From the NCBI RefSeq assembly GCF_025506335.1, contig NZ_JANZYO010000003.1, positions 434,001-498,000 of the forward strand: a DNA stretch of 64,000 bases, read 5' to 3'. Positions 23,408 through 30,620 of the stretch are shown here, in pieces. Position numbers and translations under genes: made by a program. The number at the start of each line of letters is the position of its first letter. Within the stretch, counting starts at the first letter, position 1. The DNA is from Mumia quercus (lineage in GTDB: Bacteria > Actinomycetota > Actinomycetes > Propionibacteriales > Nocardioidaceae). The notes below the pieces were generated by a model. The model was given only the letters and a program-made list of their open reading frames with translations. It made no database searches and had not been told where the DNA came from.

Positions 23408-25018
23408 ATGGGTGGGCGTCACACCTTGGCGAAGGAGAACGAAGCCGGCCGCAAGTGGCAGTACGGAATCGGTCTCGTCGTCGTCGCCACGATCCTGACG
23501 GGGGTCTTCGTCCTCAGGGACCCGGACACCCCGGCCGTTGCGTCATGCTCGACGACGCACGACGTCTCGGTCGCCGCAGCACCTGAGATCGCGCCGGTCA
23601 TCGAGGCCGCGGTCGAGCGCGTCGGAGACGACGCGTGCGCGGCGTACACGGTCGAGGCACAGGCCCCCGCGCTCGTGGCACAGTCCCTCGCGATCGGTGA
23701 GGGCACGCCGGACCTGTGGATCCCGGACTCCTCGCTGTGGCTCGCCCGCGTCACCGCCCAGCAGCCGGAGGGAGCCGCGGGCCCTGAGGTCGTCACGAAG
23801 TCGGTCGCGACCTCTCCCGTGGTCCTCGCGCTCCCCAAGGACGGACCCGGACGGCCCGACACGTGGCTCCAGGCGATGACCGACCCCAAGTTCACCAACG
23901 GTGACGCGCTGGCGACGACGCCGGCGACGGTGCCGCTGCTGGCCGCCCAGGCCGAGGCCGCGAAGGGCCTGACCAGCGCGGAGACCGTCGGCGCGACTCT
24001 CGTGACCCTCGCCCAGCGGCAGTCCGTCGCGGCGCCGAAGACCAACCCCGCCGAGCTCCTCGCCGAGGTCGCGAAGTCGGGTGGCAGCACCGTCGTGAGC
24101 GAGCAGGTCTTCCAGGCCGTGCCGGGCAGCGCCGAGTTCGTCGCCGTCGTGCCCAAGACCGGCAGCCTCGTGCTCGACTACCCGCTCGCCACCGCCTCCG
24201 ACAACCCGGGCAACGAGCGCGCCGCGAAGGCGCTCGCCGCCGCTCTCGGATCGGCCGCCGGTGTCGAGACGTTGAGCGAGGCGGGCTTCCGCACGCCGTC
24301 CGGAGACCCGCTGCCCGAGGGCAAGGGCGTCGGCCAGTTCACCCCGATCGCGCTCGACAACCCGCAGCTCGTGGCGCAGACCCTGCGCAAGTGGTCGGTC
24401 ATCGCACTCCCGGCCCAGACCGTCGCGGTGATCGACGTGTCGGGCTCGATGGAGGCCCAGGCCGGCGACTCGACCCGCATGGGGCTCACGATCGAGGCCG
24501 CGCTCACCGGGCTCTCGCTCATGCCCGACTCCTGGGCCGTGGGCTCGTGGGCCTTCTCGCACAAGCTGGACGGCGAGCAGGACTGGAAGAAGCTCGCCCC
24601 GATCCGCAAGCTCGGCTCCGTCAACGGCGGCGTCAAGCACCGCGACGTGGTCGTCCAGAAGACCCGCGAGATGGCGACGCTCGTCGGCGGCGGCACCGGT
24701 CTCTACGACACGGTGCTCGCGGCGTGGCGGACCGTCCAGGCGCAGTACGACCCGAAGGCGATCAACTCGGTCATCATCCTCACCGACGGCAAGAACGAGG
24801 ACTCCGACAGCCTGTCGCTGTCCGAGCTCCTTGCCACGATCCAGCGCGAGCGTGACCCGGCACGTCCGGTGATGGTCGTCGCGATCGGTATCACCGAGGA
24901 CGCCGACGAGGACGCGCTCAACAAGATTGCCAAGGCCACGGGGGGCCAGGCCTATATCGCTCGGGAGGCTTCAGAGATCCCGAAGGTGTTCGTCAACGCC
25001 CTCGAGTCTCGAGGGTGA
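23408..25018 (+). CDS. substrate-binding and VWA-domain protein 1
   Basis: A 536-residue membrane-anchored protein. One N-terminal transmembrane segment (about 20-37) is followed by an extracellular periplasmic-binding-like domain (about 50-335, with DLWIPDSSLWLARV), then a von Willebrand factor A domain (about 340-536). The metal-ion-dependent adhesion site is intact: DVSGS, a downstream Thr, and Asp in IILTDGKNED. AGGGAG precedes ATG 23408. This two-domain arrangement is common in actinobacteria, but no partner or ligand is known to me. It is the first of two tandem copies, about 90 bp from the next. Confidence 0.85.
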   Translation: MGGRHTLAKENEAGRKWQYGIGLVVVATILTGVFVLRDPDTPAVASCSTTHDVSVAAAPEIAPVIEAAVERVGDDACAAYTVEAQAPALVAQSLAIGEGTPDLWIPDSSLWLARVTAQQPEGAAGPEVVTKSVATSPVVLALPKDGPGRPDTWLQAMTDPKFTNGDALATTPATVPLLAAQAEAAKGLTSAETVGATLVTLAQRQSVAAPKTNPAELLAEVAKSGGSTVVSEQVFQAVPGSAEFVAVVPKTGSLVLDYPLATASDNPGNERAAKALAAALGSAAGVETLSEAGFRTPSGDPLPEGKGVGQFTPIALDNPQLVAQTLRKWSVIALPAQTVAVIDVSGSMEAQAGDSTRMGLTIEAALTGLSLMPDSWAVGSWAFSHKLDGEQDWKKLAPIRKLGSVNGGVKHRDVVVQKTREMATLVGGGTGLYDTVLAAWRTVQAQYDPKAINSVIILTDGKNEDSDSLSLSELLATIQRERDPARPVMVVAIGITEDADEDALNKIAKATGGQAYIAREASEIPKVFVNALESRG

Positions 25019-25109: not shown

Positions 25110-26726
25110 ATGGGAGGACGTCATGCGGGCGACAAGGACGCCGCCCGCTTAGGACCGACCACGTACGCGGTCGGATTCGCGGTGGTCGTCGCTCTGCTCG
25201 TCGGGCTGCTGGCGCTGCGCGACGACGACGGCTCTGCGGAGGCGCAGTGCGGCACGTCCGAGCCGGTCACGGTCGCTGTCGCGCCCGAGCTCGCGCCTCT
25301 GGTCGAGTCGGCGACCGACCGGGCGGCCACCGCCCGGTGCGTGACCTTCGAGATTCTCGCCGAGCCACCGGCCCTCACGTCGCAGGCAGTCGCGCTCGAC
25401 GACGGCGCGCCTGACCTCTGGATCCCGGACTCGGCCGTCTGGCTCACCCGGGTCGCGGGGCAGCTGGTGGAGGGTGTCGAGGCTCCGCGCACCCTCGTCC
25501 GCTCCGTCGCGACCTCGCCGGTCGTGCTCGCCTGGCCCAAGAACGGCGGTGAGCCGCCTGCGAAGTGGCTCCAGGTGCTCACCAACCCGAGGTTCACCAT
25601 CGGCGACCCCTTGTCGACGGCCACCGCGACCGCGCCCCTGCTGGCCGCGCACGCCGAGGCCGGCAGCAGCCTGACGCCCGCGGTCTTCGACACCGTCAGC
25701 AGGGCGCAGGTGACGCTGGCGCAGCGCCAGTCCGCCAGCACGGCGTCGGCCGACCCCGCGGCGCTGCTCGTGGAGACCGCGAAGACCGGCGGGAGCACCG
25801 TCGTGAGCGAGCAGGTCTTCAACGCGTCCCCGGCCGCCGACTCCTTCGTGCCGGTCCTGCCGGGCGACGGCAGCTTCGCGCTGGGCTATCCGCTGGCGCT
25901 GGTCTCCGACGACGAGGGGCACGAGAAGGCGGCGACCGCGCTGGCCGACGCCCTGACCTCTGCGGACGGGGTCGCCGCCCTGGAGAAGGCCGGCTTCCGT
26001 CGCCCCTCCGGCGAGCCTCTCAGCAAGGGCGGCGCGATCGGCCGCTTCGCCTCGATGACGATCGAGGATCCGGCGGTCATCGGCGACACGCTGCGGCGCT
26101 GGTCGTTGATCGCGCTGCCGGCGCAGGCGCTCGCGGTCATCGACGTCTCCGAGCCGATGGGGGAGCGCGCAGGCGGCTCGACGCGTATGAAGCTCACGAT
26201 GGAGGCGGCGATGACCGGGCTCGGGCTCATGCCCGACTCGTGGTCCCTCGGCATGTGGGCCTTCGCGCGCAAGGTCGACGGCAAGAAGGACTGGAAGGAG
26301 CTCGTCCCCATCCGTCCGCTGTCCACCAGCACCGGAGGCGTGAACCAGCGCGAGCTGGTGATCCGTCAGACGAAGTCCCTCAACAAGCGCGTCGAGGGCC
26401 GCACGGGCCTCTACGACACGACGCTCGCCGCGTTCCGCGAGGTCCAGGCACGGTACGACCCGAAGGCCGTCAACTCGGTCATCCTCGTCACCGGCGGGCG
26501 TAACGACGACCCGGGCAGCATCTCGCGCGGGGAGCTCGTCGAGACGCTCAAGCGTGAGCGAGACCCCGCACGGCCGGTCGTGATCATCGCGCTGGGGATC
26601 ACCGAGGACGCCGACGCGTTCTCCCTGCAGGAGATCGCGAAGGCCACCGGCGGCCAGGTGTACCTCGCCCGTCAGCCCAGCGAGATCGCGAACGTGTTCA
26701 TCAACGCCCTGCGCTCGCGTCACTGA
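25110..26726 (+). CDS. substrate-binding and VWA-domain protein 2, degenerate MIDAS
   Basis: A 538-residue tandem paralog of the previous gene with the same order: transmembrane anchor, binding-protein-like domain with DLWIPDSAVWLTRV, and VWA domain. The metal site is damaged. The DxSxS motif reads DVSEPM, losing the second Ser, and the later Asp is Gly (ILVTGGRNDD). It therefore probably cannot bind Mg2+ in the usual way and may be a non-adhesive partner of the first copy. AGGAG precedes ATG 25110. The 3' end overlaps the convergent kinase-like gene by 26 bp. Confidence 0.83.
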   Translation: MGGRHAGDKDAARLGPTTYAVGFAVVVALLVGLLALRDDDGSAEAQCGTSEPVTVAVAPELAPLVESATDRAATARCVTFEILAEPPALTSQAVALDDGAPDLWIPDSAVWLTRVAGQLVEGVEAPRTLVRSVATSPVVLAWPKNGGEPPAKWLQVLTNPRFTIGDPLSTATATAPLLAAHAEAGSSLTPAVFDTVSRAQVTLAQRQSASTASADPAALLVETAKTGGSTVVSEQVFNASPAADSFVPVLPGDGSFALGYPLALVSDDEGHEKAATALADALTSADGVAALEKAGFRRPSGEPLSKGGAIGRFASMTIEDPAVIGDTLRRWSLIALPAQALAVIDVSEPMGERAGGSTRMKLTMEAAMTGLGLMPDSWSLGMWAFARKVDGKKDWKELVPIRPLSTSTGGVNQRELVIRQTKSLNKRVEGRTGLYDTTLAAFREVQARYDPKAVNSVILVTGGRNDDPGSISRGELVETLKRERDPARPVVIIALGITEDADAFSLQEIAKATGGQVYLARQPSEIANVFINALRSRH

Positions 26727-27324
26727 CGCGGGCGCGGGCGGCGATGCGCCGCTCAGCCTGGCGGGGCGTGACGGGTCGGCACCCGTGACGCTCCGCCAGG
26801 GCCACGACGGCAGGCTCCTCACGCATCAGGTGCCAGCCACGGCGCAGCAGCACGGGCAGCGACTTCCGCTTCTCGCGCAGGTCGCGGGCCAGCCGCAGGA
26901 CGAACGTGACAAGCCGGTGGTGGCGTACGCACATCGCGTCGGCGAGCAGCCCGCGACGCTCCAGCTCCGCAACCACCACGTGCGCGAAGAGACCTTCGGC
27001 GACGACGGTCGCGGCGTCGGCGAGGACGAGGGTGTGCGCGCCCGTACGCCGGCTCAGCGCGATGTCGTAGACGGGGACCTCGACGGTGCCGACGGTGCAG
27101 AGGACCTCCAAGGCGTCGCACGCCGCCACGACGTCCCACGATCGCTCGTCGTCCCAGTCGACGACCTCGGTGTCGCCGAAGGTGATGGTCGGCAACCCGG
27201 GGTCGCCCGCCTCGCGGTAGAAGTCGTCCAGCCGTACGACGGGCAGGCCGCTGCGCGCGGCGACCCGCGACTTGCCCGAGCCCGACGGTCCGGACAGGAC
27301 GACCACTCCGACGCGGCCGCTCAC
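26701..27324 (-). CDS. uridine-kinase-like P-loop protein
   Basis: A 207-residue P-loop NTPase resembling uridine kinase: Walker A GPSGSGKSRV at about 10-19, LDDFYREAGDPGLP (the uridine kinase DDFY motif), and VVDWDDERSWD matching the region that binds nucleoside in the family. GTG 27324 overlaps the preceding aldehyde dehydrogenase stop. As the last gene of the deoC operon, a role in nucleoside salvage is plausible, but the protein is shorter than Udk and the substrate is not certain. Its 3' end overlaps the convergent VWA gene. Confidence 0.75.
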   Translation of the reverse strand: MSGRVGVVVLSGPSGSGKSRVAARSGLPVVRLDDFYREAGDPGLPTITFGDTEVVDWDDERSWDVVAACDALEVLCTVGTVEVPVYDIALSRRTGAHTLVLADAATVVAEGLFAHVVVAELERRGLLADAMCVRHHRLVTFVLRLARDLREKRKSLPVLLRRGWHLMREEPAVVALAERHGCRPVTPRQAERRIAARARVSDASAGR

Positions 27325-28181
27325 ACGCCCACGGGGTGCCAGACGGTCTTCGTCTCGAGGAAGGCCGTCATGCGGGCGATCGACGGCTCTGCCGTCCAGT
27401 CGGGGGCGCTCGGGCGCAGGACGCGCTTGAGGTTCACCGCGGCCTCGGCCTCGAGCGTGGTGGCGAGGTCGGCGTCGGTCACGCCGGTCAGGTCGAGCGC
27501 GTTGACGTCCAGGTGGGCCGCGAGCCACGGCCCGAGCTCGGCGACGTCACCGGTGAGGACGTTGACGACACCGCCCGGGACGTCGGAGGTCGCGAGGACC
27601 TCGGAGAGCGTGACGGCGGCGAGCGGACGCTCGTAGGAGGTGACGACCACCGCGGTGTTGCCCGACACGATCACCGGGGCGAGCACCGACACGAGGCCCA
27701 GGAGGCTGTCGTCGGCGGGTGCGGCGACCGCGACCACCCCGGTCGGCTCCGGCGAGGAGAGGTTGAAGAACGGGCCGGCGACCTGGTTGGCGTTGCCGGT
27801 GACCTGCGCCAGCTTGTCGGCCCACCCGGCGTACCAGACCCACCGGTCGATCGCGGCGTCGACGACCTTGGCGGCCTGCGCCTTGGTGAGCCCCTCGGCG
27901 GCGACGACGTCGGCGGTGAACTGCTCGTGACGCCCCTCGATCATCTCCGCGACGCGGTAGAGGATCTGGCCGCGGTTGTACGGGGTGCGCCCCGCCCACC
28001 CGCCGAACGCCTTGCGGGCGGCGACGACGGCGTCGCGCGCGTCCTTGCGCGAGGCCTTGGCGGCGTTGGCGAGGAAGCGGCCCTTGGTGTCGCTCACCTC
28101 GTACGTGTGGCCCGACTCGGAGCGGGGGAACGCCCCGCCGATGTAGAGCTTGTAGGTCTTGCGCACGTCGAGCCGGCTCAT
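27321..28181 (-). CDS. truncated, non-catalytic aldehyde dehydrogenase
   Basis: A 286-residue protein matching only the first part of the aldehyde dehydrogenase fold. The N-terminal strand YKLYIGGAFPRSESGHTYEV, the Rossmann region (VSGNTAVVVTSYERP) and VPGGVVNVLTGD are recognisable. The ELGGK segment with the general-base Glu and the whole region with the catalytic Cys are missing, and the chain ends after a short unrelated tail. It overlaps the full-length enzyme by 4 nt. The tandem arrangement resembles the fused two-domain ALDH16 enzymes, whose second domain is non-catalytic, so a structural or dimerising subunit is more likely than a broken gene; no frame damage is visible. Confidence 0.8.
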   Translation of the reverse strand: MSRLDVRKTYKLYIGGAFPRSESGHTYEVSDTKGRFLANAAKASRKDARDAVVAARKAFGGWAGRTPYNRGQILYRVAEMIEGRHEQFTADVVAAEGLTKAQAAKVVDAAIDRWVWYAGWADKLAQVTGNANQVAGPFFNLSSPEPTGVVAVAAPADDSLLGLVSVLAPVIVSGNTAVVVTSYERPLAAVTLSEVLATSDVPGGVVNVLTGDVAELGPWLAAHLDVNALDLTGVTDADLATTLEAEAAVNLKRVLRPSAPDWTAEPSIARMTAFLETKTVWHPVGV

Positions 28182-29659
28182 GCGGTCTCGCCCTCCTGCA
28201 GGTCCGAGCTGGTGAGGTAGGCGGCGAGGCCCTGACGGCCACCCTCGCGGCCGTAGCCCGACTCCTTGTAGCCGCCGAACGGCGAGGCGGGGTCGAACTT
28301 GTTGAAGGTGTTGGCCCAGACCACGCCGGCGCGCAGTCGGTCGGCGATGGCGAGGATGCGCGACCCCTTTTCGGTCCACACGCCGGCCGACAGTCCGTAC
28401 GGGGTGTTGTTGGCCTTGGCGACCGCCTCGTCCGGCGTGCGGAACGTGAGCACGGAGAGCACGGGGCCGAAGATCTCCTCGCGGGCGATCCGGTGCGCCT
28501 GGGTGACGCCGGTGAAGACCGTCGGCGCGTACCAGTAGCCCGAGGACGGCAGCTCGCACGGCGGCGACCACCGCTCGGCGCCCTCCTCGTCGCCGGTGCT
28601 CGCCAGCGCGGTGATGCGGTCGAGCTGCTCGCGCGAGTTGATCGCACCGATGTCGGTGTTCTTGTCGAGCGGGTCGCCGACGCGCAGCGTGGTCATGCGG
28701 CGCTTGAGGCGCTCCATGACCTCGTCGTACACGTTCTCCTGCACCAGCAGCCGCGAGCCTGCGCAGCACACGTGGCCCTGGTTGAAGAAGATCCCGGAGA
28801 CGATGCCCTCGACCGCCTGGTCCATCGGGGCGTCCTCGAACACGATGTTGGCGGCCTTGCCGCCGAGCTCGAGGGTCAGCCGCTTGTCGGTGCCGGCGAC
28901 GGCGCGCGCGATCTGGCGGCCGACGTCGGTCGACCCCGTGAACGCGACCTTGTCGACGTCGGGGTGCGACACGAGTGTCTGCCCGGTGGCGCCGGCACCG
29001 GTGACGATGTTGACGACGCCCGGCGGGAGGTCGGCCTGCTGGCAGATCTCGGCGAACAGCAGCGCCGTCAGCGGCGTCGTCTCGGCGGGCTTGAGGACGA
29101 CGGTGTTGCCGGCGGCGAGCGCGGGAGCGATCTTCCAGGCGAGCATGAGCAGCGGGAAGTTCCACGGGATCACCTGGGCCGCGACACCGAGCGGGCGCGG
29201 CGTGGCGCCCAGGCCCGCGTACGCGAGCTTGTCCGCCCAGCCGGCGTAGTAGAAGAACCACTGCGAGACGAGCGGGATGTCGACGTCGCGCGACTCCTTG
29301 ATCGGCTTGCCGTTGTCGAGCGACTCCAGCACGGCGAGCTCGCGGCTGCGCTCGGCGAGGATGCGGGCGATGCGGTAGAGGTACTTCGCGCGCTCGCGGC
29401 CCGGCATCCGCGACCAGGTGCAGAAGGCCCGGCGGGCGGCGGCGACCGCGGCGTCGACGTCGGCGTCGGTCGCCTCGGTGACCTCGGCGAGCACCTCCTC
29501 GGTCGCCGGGTTGACGGTCTTGAACGTCCTGCCGTCGGCGCCCTCGGTGAAGGCGCCGTCGATGAAGAGCCCGTACGAGGGCTGGAGGTCGACGATCGAG
29601 CGCGACTCGGGCGCGGGCGCGTAGTCGAGCGGGGTGGGGGGTACGGCGTGGTCGGCCAT
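28178..29659 (-). CDS. aldehyde dehydrogenase
   Basis: A 493-residue NAD(P)-dependent aldehyde dehydrogenase. The substrate tunnel motif VIPWNFPLLM, the cofactor motif FTGSTDVGR, the general base in LELGGK, and the catalytic cysteine in NQGHVCCAGSR are all present. DeoC, 10 bp upstream, releases acetaldehyde, so oxidation of acetaldehyde to acetate is the simplest role. The stop overlaps the truncated second ALDH as ATGA, suggesting the two are made together and may form a complex. Confidence 0.92.
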   Translation of the reverse strand: MADHAVPPTPLDYAPAPESRSIVDLQPSYGLFIDGAFTEGADGRTFKTVNPATEEVLAEVTEATDADVDAAVAAARRAFCTWSRMPGRERAKYLYRIARILAERSRELAVLESLDNGKPIKESRDVDIPLVSQWFFYYAGWADKLAYAGLGATPRPLGVAAQVIPWNFPLLMLAWKIAPALAAGNTVVLKPAETTPLTALLFAEICQQADLPPGVVNIVTGAGATGQTLVSHPDVDKVAFTGSTDVGRQIARAVAGTDKRLTLELGGKAANIVFEDAPMDQAVEGIVSGIFFNQGHVCCAGSRLLVQENVYDEVMERLKRRMTTLRVGDPLDKNTDIGAINSREQLDRITALASTGDEEGAERWSPPCELPSSGYWYAPTVFTGVTQAHRIAREEIFGPVLSVLTFRTPDEAVAKANNTPYGLSAGVWTEKGSRILAIADRLRAGVVWANTFNKFDPASPFGGYKESGYGREGGRQGLAAYLTSSDLQEGETA

Positions 29660-29669
29660 GTCGCTGCCT

Positions 29670-30620
29670 TCAGTCGATCGTCACGTAGTCGGGGCCGGCG
29701 TAGCGGCCGGTCTCGAGCTTCTGGCGCTGCATGAGCAGGTCGTTGAGCAGGCTCGATGCCCCGAAGCGGAACCACGTCGGGGTCATCCAGTCGACGCCGG
29801 CGGTCTCGTTGACCGTGACGAGGTACTTGATGGCGTCCTTGGTGGTGCGGATGCCGCCGGCGGGCTTGACGCCCACCTGCACGCCGAAGGTGTCGCGGAA
29901 GTCACGCACTGCCTCCAGCATGAGCAGCGTCACCGGCAGCGTCGCCGCGGGCGCGACCTTGCCGGTGCTGGTCTTGATGAAGTCGGCGCCGGCCAGCATC
30001 GCCAGCCAGGAGGCGCGACGGACGTTGTCGTACGTCGCGAGCTCGCCGGTCTCGAGGATCACCTTGAGGTGGGCGCGGGTGCCGTCGCGGCGCTCGCAGG
30101 CGGCGCGGACGGCGACGATCTCCTCGTAGACCTTGAGGAGGTCGCCGGCGAGGAAGGCGCCACGGTCGATGACCATGTCGATCTCGCTCGCGCCCGCGGC
30201 TACGGCGTTCTCGGTGTCGGCGATCTTGATCGGGAGGGCGGCGCGGCCGGACGGGAAGGCGGTGGCGACGCTCGCCACGCCGACCGGGGCGTCGCCGAGC
30301 GCCTCACGGGCGGTGGCGACGAGGTCGGGGTAGACGCACACGGCGGCGACCTGCGGGCAGGTCGCGTCGGACGGGTCGGGTCGCAGCGCCTTCGCGGCGA
30401 GCGAGCGGACCTTGCCGGGGGTGTCTGCCCCCTCCAGCGTCGTCAGGTCGACCATCGAGATCGCGAGGTCGATCGCCGTGCGTTTGGCGTCCTTCTTGAT
30501 GGATCGGGTCGCGAGAGCGGCGGCGCGCGCCTCCAGCCCGACCTGGTCGACCCCTGAGAGGTCGCCCAGCACGGTCCGGACGTCGGCGGCGCTGCCGAGC
30601 ACGGTCGGTGTCGTGGTCAC
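29670..30620 (-). CDS. deoC: deoxyribose-phosphate aldolase
   Basis: Cleaves 2-deoxyribose 5-phosphate to glyceraldehyde 3-phosphate and acetaldehyde, the last step of deoxynucleoside catabolism. The 316-residue protein is of the long form. The Schiff-base lysine is in ADFIKTSTGK, the second catalytic lysine in VGVKPAGGIRT, and the conserved Asp in EIDMVIDRGAF. GTG 30620 is fixed by a -10 box 6 nt upstream. It heads an operon with two aldehyde dehydrogenase genes and a uridine-kinase-like gene. Confidence 0.95.
   Translation of the reverse strand: MTTTPTVLGSAADVRTVLGDLSGVDQVGLEARAAALATRSIKKDAKRTAIDLAISMVDLTTLEGADTPGKVRSLAAKALRPDPSDATCPQVAAVCVYPDLVATAREALGDAPVGVASVATAFPSGRAALPIKIADTENAVAAGASEIDMVIDRGAFLAGDLLKVYEEIVAVRAACERRDGTRAHLKVILETGELATYDNVRRASWLAMLAGADFIKTSTGKVAPAATLPVTLLMLEAVRDFRDTFGVQVGVKPAGGIRTTKDAIKYLVTVNETAGVDWMTPTWFRFGASSLLNDLLMQRQKLETGRYAGPDYVTID

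Follow-up and report, generated by a model that had tools for sequence, protein, structure and literature searches.

A split, two-gene relative of ALDH16 beside deoC in the actinomycete Mumia quercus

Why would a bacterium encode an aldehyde dehydrogenase (ALDH) with all its active-site residues and, directly behind it, a second ALDH-like protein without a catalytic domain? The question is raised by a 64,000-nucleotide (nt) stretch of the Mumia quercus genome (contig NZ_JANZYO010000003.1, positions 434,001 to 498,000 of the forward strand), referred to here as the window, in which the two genes overlap and follow deoC. We consider it highly probable that they encode a two-gene ALDH16, in which the short protein docks on the long one as its dimer partner and the heteromer oxidizes acetaldehyde derived from DeoC. 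The elements concerned are as follows, with positions in the window and protein lengths in amino acids (aa).

29670..30620, minus strand: deoC, deoxyribose-phosphate aldolase; equivalog TIGR00126; 10 nt upstream of the long ALDH gene
28178..29659, minus strand: long (catalytic) ALDH subunit, 493 aa, ATG start; catalytic residues and residues contacting nicotinamide adenine dinucleotide (NAD) kept, C-terminal oligomerization strand absent
28178..28181, minus strand: ATGA overlap of 4 nt, read from the sequence, comprising the long-gene stop and the short-gene start
27321..28181, minus strand: short (non-catalytic) ALDH-like subunit, 286 aa, ATG start; Rossmann-type domain, flap and C-terminal strand, without the catalytic domain

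The long and short genes together fill exactly 27321-29659, the span singled out by an earlier reading of the letters alone (the original prediction). The nearest named relative of the pair is found in Aeromicrobium flavum, with 78% identity for the short and 84% for the long protein, which points to Actinomycetota as the phylum of the window.

Descent of the two proteins from the halves of ALDH16

We compared the pair with 121 loci of the two-gene type (split loci) and with proteins in which both halves form one chain (fused). Searches of the PDB led from both proteins to the same entry. The best match of the long protein was residues 11-476 of a bacterial ALDH16 (expectation value, E, 5.7e-173; best ordinary ALDH, 9.4e-129), and the short protein matched that chain best as well, at residues 500-766 (E 1.3e-52, against 9.5e-30 for the best ordinary ALDH). 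An AlphaFold model of the short protein was obtained with a predicted local distance difference test (pLDDT) score of 92.8 and a final strand at residues 275-283. The top three PDB entries in a fold search with this model were ALDH16, with template modelling (TM) scores of 0.89-0.90 over 286-287 columns; ordinary ALDHs, among the best 50 matches, reached 0.76-0.81 over 250-266 columns.

In a tree of the shared region (71 domain sequences), in which the bootstrap had yet to settle, 22 split short proteins and seven fused C-terminal halves formed one clade (support 100/100), within which each set had a clade of its own (98/97 and 100/99, respectively), and 22 long proteins clustered with seven fused N-terminal halves at 94/95. 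A full-length tree of the N halves with 13 other ALDHs placed the long proteins and fused N halves in one clade (100/98). The crystallised ALDH16 is absent from the tree rows and is connected to the pair through the search scores. The original prediction had suggested the two-gene equivalent of ALDH16, and both the search matches and the clades shared with fused halves support this; a grouping of the short protein with unrelated ALDH fragments, for which the trees were also examined, did not occur. Judged by these scores and trees, both halves of the pair descend from ALDH16 halves and not from other ALDHs. ALDH16 proper has both domains in one polypeptide, whereas the window and all 121 split loci have two genes; the pair is thus a two-gene variant by build and ALDH16 by origin, and not ALDH16 in the strict sense.

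Reciprocal losses in the long and short proteins

The residues kept and lost were counted in 117 long and 117 short proteins, namely those of the window and of 116 of the 121 split loci, the other five being left out because their long gene was shorter than 470 aa. The long protein of the window contains the Asn (PWNFP), Lys (LKPAE), Glu (ELGGK), Cys (VCC) and second Glu (EEIFGP) of the active site, and all five are kept in 117 of 117 aligned long proteins. The short protein of the window matches the Pfam Aldedh profile only at positions 10-232 of 461, and the column of the catalytic Cys is empty in all 117 short proteins; the catalytic Glu and Cys are missing because the catalytic domain is absent. 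When the short model was superposed on ordinary ALDHs with VIA-align, approximately 265-276 positions of their roughly 470-500 residues were aligned across nearly the full length, so a large middle part is missing in the short protein, and on ALDH16 the span was limited to residues 497-766. The position of the NAD-contact Lys is occupied by Val, Ile or Leu in 112 of the 117 short proteins, and in the coenzyme motif the second Gly is replaced by Ala in 77, with the first Gly retained in 114. The short protein is thus an ALDH devoid of its catalytic domain that has probably lost normal NAD binding.

The chain of ordinary ALDHs ends in a strand of the oligomerization domain, and in the classical ALDH dimer each protomer lends its flap and last strand to the partner. 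A motif for this strand, defined after inspection of the aligned tails and hence fitted to data already viewed, was carried by 12 of the 13 ordinary ALDHs. Of the short proteins, 103 of 117 ended in it, as did all seven fused C halves, and it was absent from the long proteins (0/117) and the fused N halves (0/7). The motif replaced an earlier pattern, which had matched 0/117 long, 82/117 short, 2/13 ordinary and 0/7 fused C sequences. All ten displayed among the 14 short proteins missed by the motif retain a T-V/A/T-W-H run at the end. The long and short proteins have therefore undergone reciprocal losses, each being without what the other keeps. The original prediction had described a complete ALDH overlapping by 4 nt a protein without the ELGGK glutamate and the catalytic cysteine; the overlap and the missing residues are as described, but the long protein is not complete, its C-terminal strand being absent.

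Split and fused loci and their gene context

Short and long homologues were sought in 296 genomes drawn evenly from the phylum of the window. A close short homologue (51-100% identity) was found in 71 of them, the next match having 38% identity, one 98-residue fragment aside, and a long homologue at E 1e-180 or better in 69. Both were present in 68 genomes, the short one only in three, the long one only in one and neither in 224; three of these four single-gene exceptions (G267, G287 and G135) are truncated by the contig end, judged from coordinates. Both matches lay on one contig and strand in 65 of the 68 two-gene genomes and at most 250 nt apart in 64, and in none did they have equal open-frame lengths, hence none looked fused.

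The 121 split loci comprise 40 of the 71 draw genomes, one Nonomuraea record and 80 loci from named genomes, 79 of these from Actinomycetota plus the locus L086, which makes 120 actinomycete loci and L086. The two-gene arrangement was found at every one of them, including all 120 from actinomycetes, so the pair is no product of chance. With approximate starts assigned by rule, the short gene begins 7, 3, 0 or 10 nt ahead of the final base of the long-gene stop codon at 44, 30, 16 and 3 loci, respectively, an overlap of 1, 4, 8 or 11 nt at 93 of the 121. At one locus, L136 of Streptomyces echinatus, the two genes stand in one frame with a single stop between them.

The original prediction had pointed to DeoC just upstream, and as gene context this extends far beyond the window: deoC lies on the same strand within 1 kilobase (kb) upstream at 115 of the 121 split loci. 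For the remaining six, deoC is at 1.8 and 2.5 kb in two and not in the stretch in four, three of which meet a contig end. The fused form has a similar setting. Plasmid records with matches numbered 155, and the seven proteobacterial ones that were read (Sinorhizobium meliloti, Caballeronia, Agrobacterium, Roseicitreum, Shinella and two Paracoccus species) all carry both halves in one gene of 776-798 aa, with the end of deoC 3-25 nt upstream in seven of seven. Ala, Pro and further small or charged residues abound in their linker, which is absent at the split junctions displayed. The five annotated plasmid loci besides S. meliloti have adjacent sugar-transporter genes together with ribokinase, aldose-epimerase or FGGY-kinase annotations, and the S. 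meliloti locus is preceded by a DeoR-type regulator and followed at some distance by a transporter set; these neighbourhoods would fit deoxyribose use.

The genome group of L086 (61 genomes, 20 matches at E 1e-55, loci L172-L191) holds both forms, with 13 fused and seven split loci, L188 being the L086 locus again. None of the other 60 members is in the 296-genome draw, which suggests that the group belongs to another phylum. In this group deoC was found upstream on the same strand, within approximately 2.3 kb, at nine of 13 fused and all seven split loci. The identity of DeoC to that of the window is 61-67% at the split loci and 44-48% at the fused ones, so whole cassettes differ. A wider N-half tree, from which L188 was omitted, joins the fused genes of the group to the proteobacterial fused genes (100/97) and its split genes to the actinomycete split genes (100/98), and in the C-half tree one change between split and fused suffices. 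One fusion or one fission, plus transfer or deep inheritance, would explain both forms. Split and fused forms are sister clades in the N- and C-half trees, and the trees are therefore silent on which is ancestral. In viral contigs, 55 stretches matched the patterns and none had an encoded relative (tblastn).

In the window itself, the order of transcription on the minus strand is deoC, the long ALDH gene, the short ALDH-like gene and a kinase-like gene. DeoC passed the NCBIfam equivalog cut-off with 160.7 bits against 117.3. The last gene of the series is the following.

26701..27324, minus strand: small P-loop kinase-like protein; AAA_33 below cut-off; overlaps the short ALDH gene by 4 nt (GTGA)

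Its GTG start was picked by eye, ahead of the P-loop, and uridine kinase models of NCBIfam scored far under their cut-off. Several split loci (e.g., L063, L072 and L073) have a comparable gene downstream, likewise on the same strand. The plus strand nearby carries a pyrimidine-nucleoside-phosphorylase-like gene and an adenosine-deaminase gene (Pfam), which fit nucleoside breakdown. Also on the plus strand, the gene at 23408-25018 combines a solute-binding-like part with a von Willebrand A domain (Pfam), and an apparent tandem partner follows at about 25110-26726, its similarity judged by eye and its start guessed.

A proposed heteromer, its alternatives and known systems

From the homology of the halves, their reciprocal losses, the co-occurrence of the genes and their context, we infer the following scheme. 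An ancestral ALDH would have been duplicated; one copy would have retained the NAD and catalytic domains and lost the C-terminal oligomerization strand, and the other would have lost the catalytic domain, the NAD-contact Lys and the second Gly while retaining the Rossmann-type domain, the flap and the strand. The short protein probably takes the second-protomer seat of the classical ALDH dimer on the long one and supplies the missing strand, and the active enzyme is predicted to be a (long.short)2 heterotetramer, like the classical ALDH tetramer. The equivalent contact would lie within the chain in fused ALDH16 and between unlike chains in the split form. Translation of the short gene is probably coupled via the overlap. 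DeoC would free acetaldehyde from deoxyribose 5-phosphate, and the heteromer would probably oxidize it to acetate with NAD.

Two comparisons bear on such a partnership. Distance matrices were compared at 111 of the 121 split loci (ten were left out, having a long gene under 470 aa or a deoC that was missing, short or more than 1 kb off). The correlation between the long and short matrices was 0.93; controlling for deoC lowered it to 0.72, a value reached by none of 999 shuffles; the partial correlations were 0.47 for long and deoC with the short protein held constant, and 0.19 for short and deoC with the long one held constant. This is consistent with a long-short partnership and is not proof of one, since genes of the same operon share history. 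Several residues, including Thr9, Lys11, Arg20, Arg45, Lys46, Arg49, Gln72 and Glu79, are common to split short proteins and fused C halves and rare elsewhere in ALDHs; Arg45, Lys46 and Arg49 occur in 117 of 117 short proteins, seven of seven fused C halves and no more than one in four of the 13 ordinary ALDHs. Such residues are candidates for the docking surface. Long proteins and fused N halves have a separate distinctive residue set of their own.

Several results weigh against the proposed two-gene ALDH16. No NCBIfam model reached its cut-off for the long or short ALDH among the best 25 matches. The VIA-align Z-scores of the short model were tied between ALDH16 and ordinary ALDHs, so fold alone cannot decide membership of ALDH16, which is decided by sequence scores and trees. 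An AlphaFold model of the joined pair, made from the S. echinatus locus with the stop read as Gly, was poor and uninformative on docking (pLDDT 67.8, predicted TM score 0.43), its alignment being sound but shallow (13 rows). Overlap is not universal, as the short gene starts at least 50 nt past the long stop at 13 of 121 split loci, and in one draw genome (G028:C494:11501-15207) the two matches are 1.4 kb apart and not adjacent. The long-DeoC partial correlation implies that correlations of this kind stem in part from shared history. At four of the 13 fused loci of the L086 group (L172, L174, L180 and L181), no deoC was found in the 13 kb fetched. A different substrate, or a deoC too diverged for the query, may account for the missing deoC at these four.

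The same four loci would suit a split ALDH16 that acts on another aldehyde, with deoC merely a frequent neighbour. Against this stand the deoC gene within 1 kb at nearly all split loci (115/121) and directly upstream at all seven plasmid loci, as well as the ribokinase-annotated and sugar-uptake genes at several of the latter. Escherichia coli AldB, an enzyme active on acetaldehyde, is moreover the nearest to the long half among the outgroups used (97/88, and 99/92 in the wider tree; long branches). Gene context and, weakly, the nearness of AldB in the trees suggest that acetaldehyde is probably the substrate, and we regard another aldehyde as unlikely. We regard it as distinctly unlikely that the long protein, being an ALDH16 homologue, is active alone and that the short one is a free-standing accessory, either a regulator or a scaffold holding DeoC near the dehydrogenase. 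Known aldolase-dehydrogenase complexes pass the aldehyde on directly, and the shared operon, the gene overlap, the intact catalytic residues of the long protein and the correlation that remains between long and DeoC distances (0.47) would all agree with such an arrangement. However, the long protein is without the terminal strand that 12 of the 13 ordinary ALDHs possess, little correlation remains between short and DeoC distances once the long protein is held constant (0.19), and the fused relatives carry the short half joined to the long half in one chain.

Two further explanations deserve hardly any credence. A short gene that is a functionless, decaying ALDH duplicate would be expected to lack the catalytic domain and the NAD-contact Lys, as it does, but 49 columns are invariant among 38 short proteins that are each 50-77% identical to that of the window, both genes are present in 68 of the 72 genomes with either, and the same architecture is retained as a domain of fused ALDH16. 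Equally negligible, in our estimate, is a frameshift or assembly error dividing a truly fused gene; two frames do overlap by 4 nt, yet the split recurs at all 121 loci, taken from the own-phylum draw, named actinomycetes and L086, with junctions that vary in length, and none of the split junctions displayed contains the linker of the seven fused proteins.

The role of the extra domain of ALDH16 is unclear, and a natural two-gene ALDH16 would allow this domain to be omitted, restored or mutated with no need to cut a protein. In different bacterial groups deoC accompanies the split and the fused form, which suggests a concrete pathway for bacterial ALDH16, from deoxyribose 5-phosphate through acetaldehyde to acetate. 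If the reciprocal losses are read correctly, an interface that once joined like chains has come to join the products of two genes in one lineage and has moved inside a single chain in another. We advance only as a tentative and rather doubtful idea that the two-gene, deoC-linked heteromer is the ancestral ALDH16, the parts of one ALDH having been divided by tandem duplication and later fused once; fused ALDH16, the human pseudoenzyme included, would then stem from an enzyme of DNA-sugar breakdown that oxidized acetaldehyde. Among the literature matches listed, which covered few subscription journals, no report of a two-gene ALDH16 or of its association with deoC appeared by title or abstract. 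The relevant Streptomyces coelicolor genes are presumably SCO4914 and SCO4913. In one report, SCO4914 is named deoxyribose-phosphate aldolase and SCO4913 is placed among genes resembling an arginine pathway (PMC3293853).

The pair of the window can be set beside four known systems. Bacterial ALDH16 members carry out NAD-dependent aldehyde oxidation, and those of PDB entries 6MVR, 6MVS and 6MVU, which we take to be Loktanella ALDH16, have the same order, the catalytic ALDH half coming first and the non-catalytic half second, in a single 767-residue chain as opposed to the two chains of the window. Loktanella ALDH16 is discussed in a review, which states that intrachain contacts of ALDH16 mimic interchain ones and that two chains mimic a tetramer (PMC8160307). 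The deoC-linked fused ALDHs of plasmids occupy the same slot directly behind deoC and are homologous in both halves, and they differ in being single genes with a linker. Vertebrate ALDH16A1 also has the two-part ALDH16 architecture. Two sources describe it as a pseudoenzyme without the catalytic Cys and link a variant of the human form to gout (PMC8160307, PMC10650815). The Cys lost there is kept in the long protein of the window. E. coli AldB, for which we know of no companion subunit, represents the classical ALDHs; it shares with the long protein the ALDH fold and the catalytic residues, and in contrast to it carries its own C-terminal strand.

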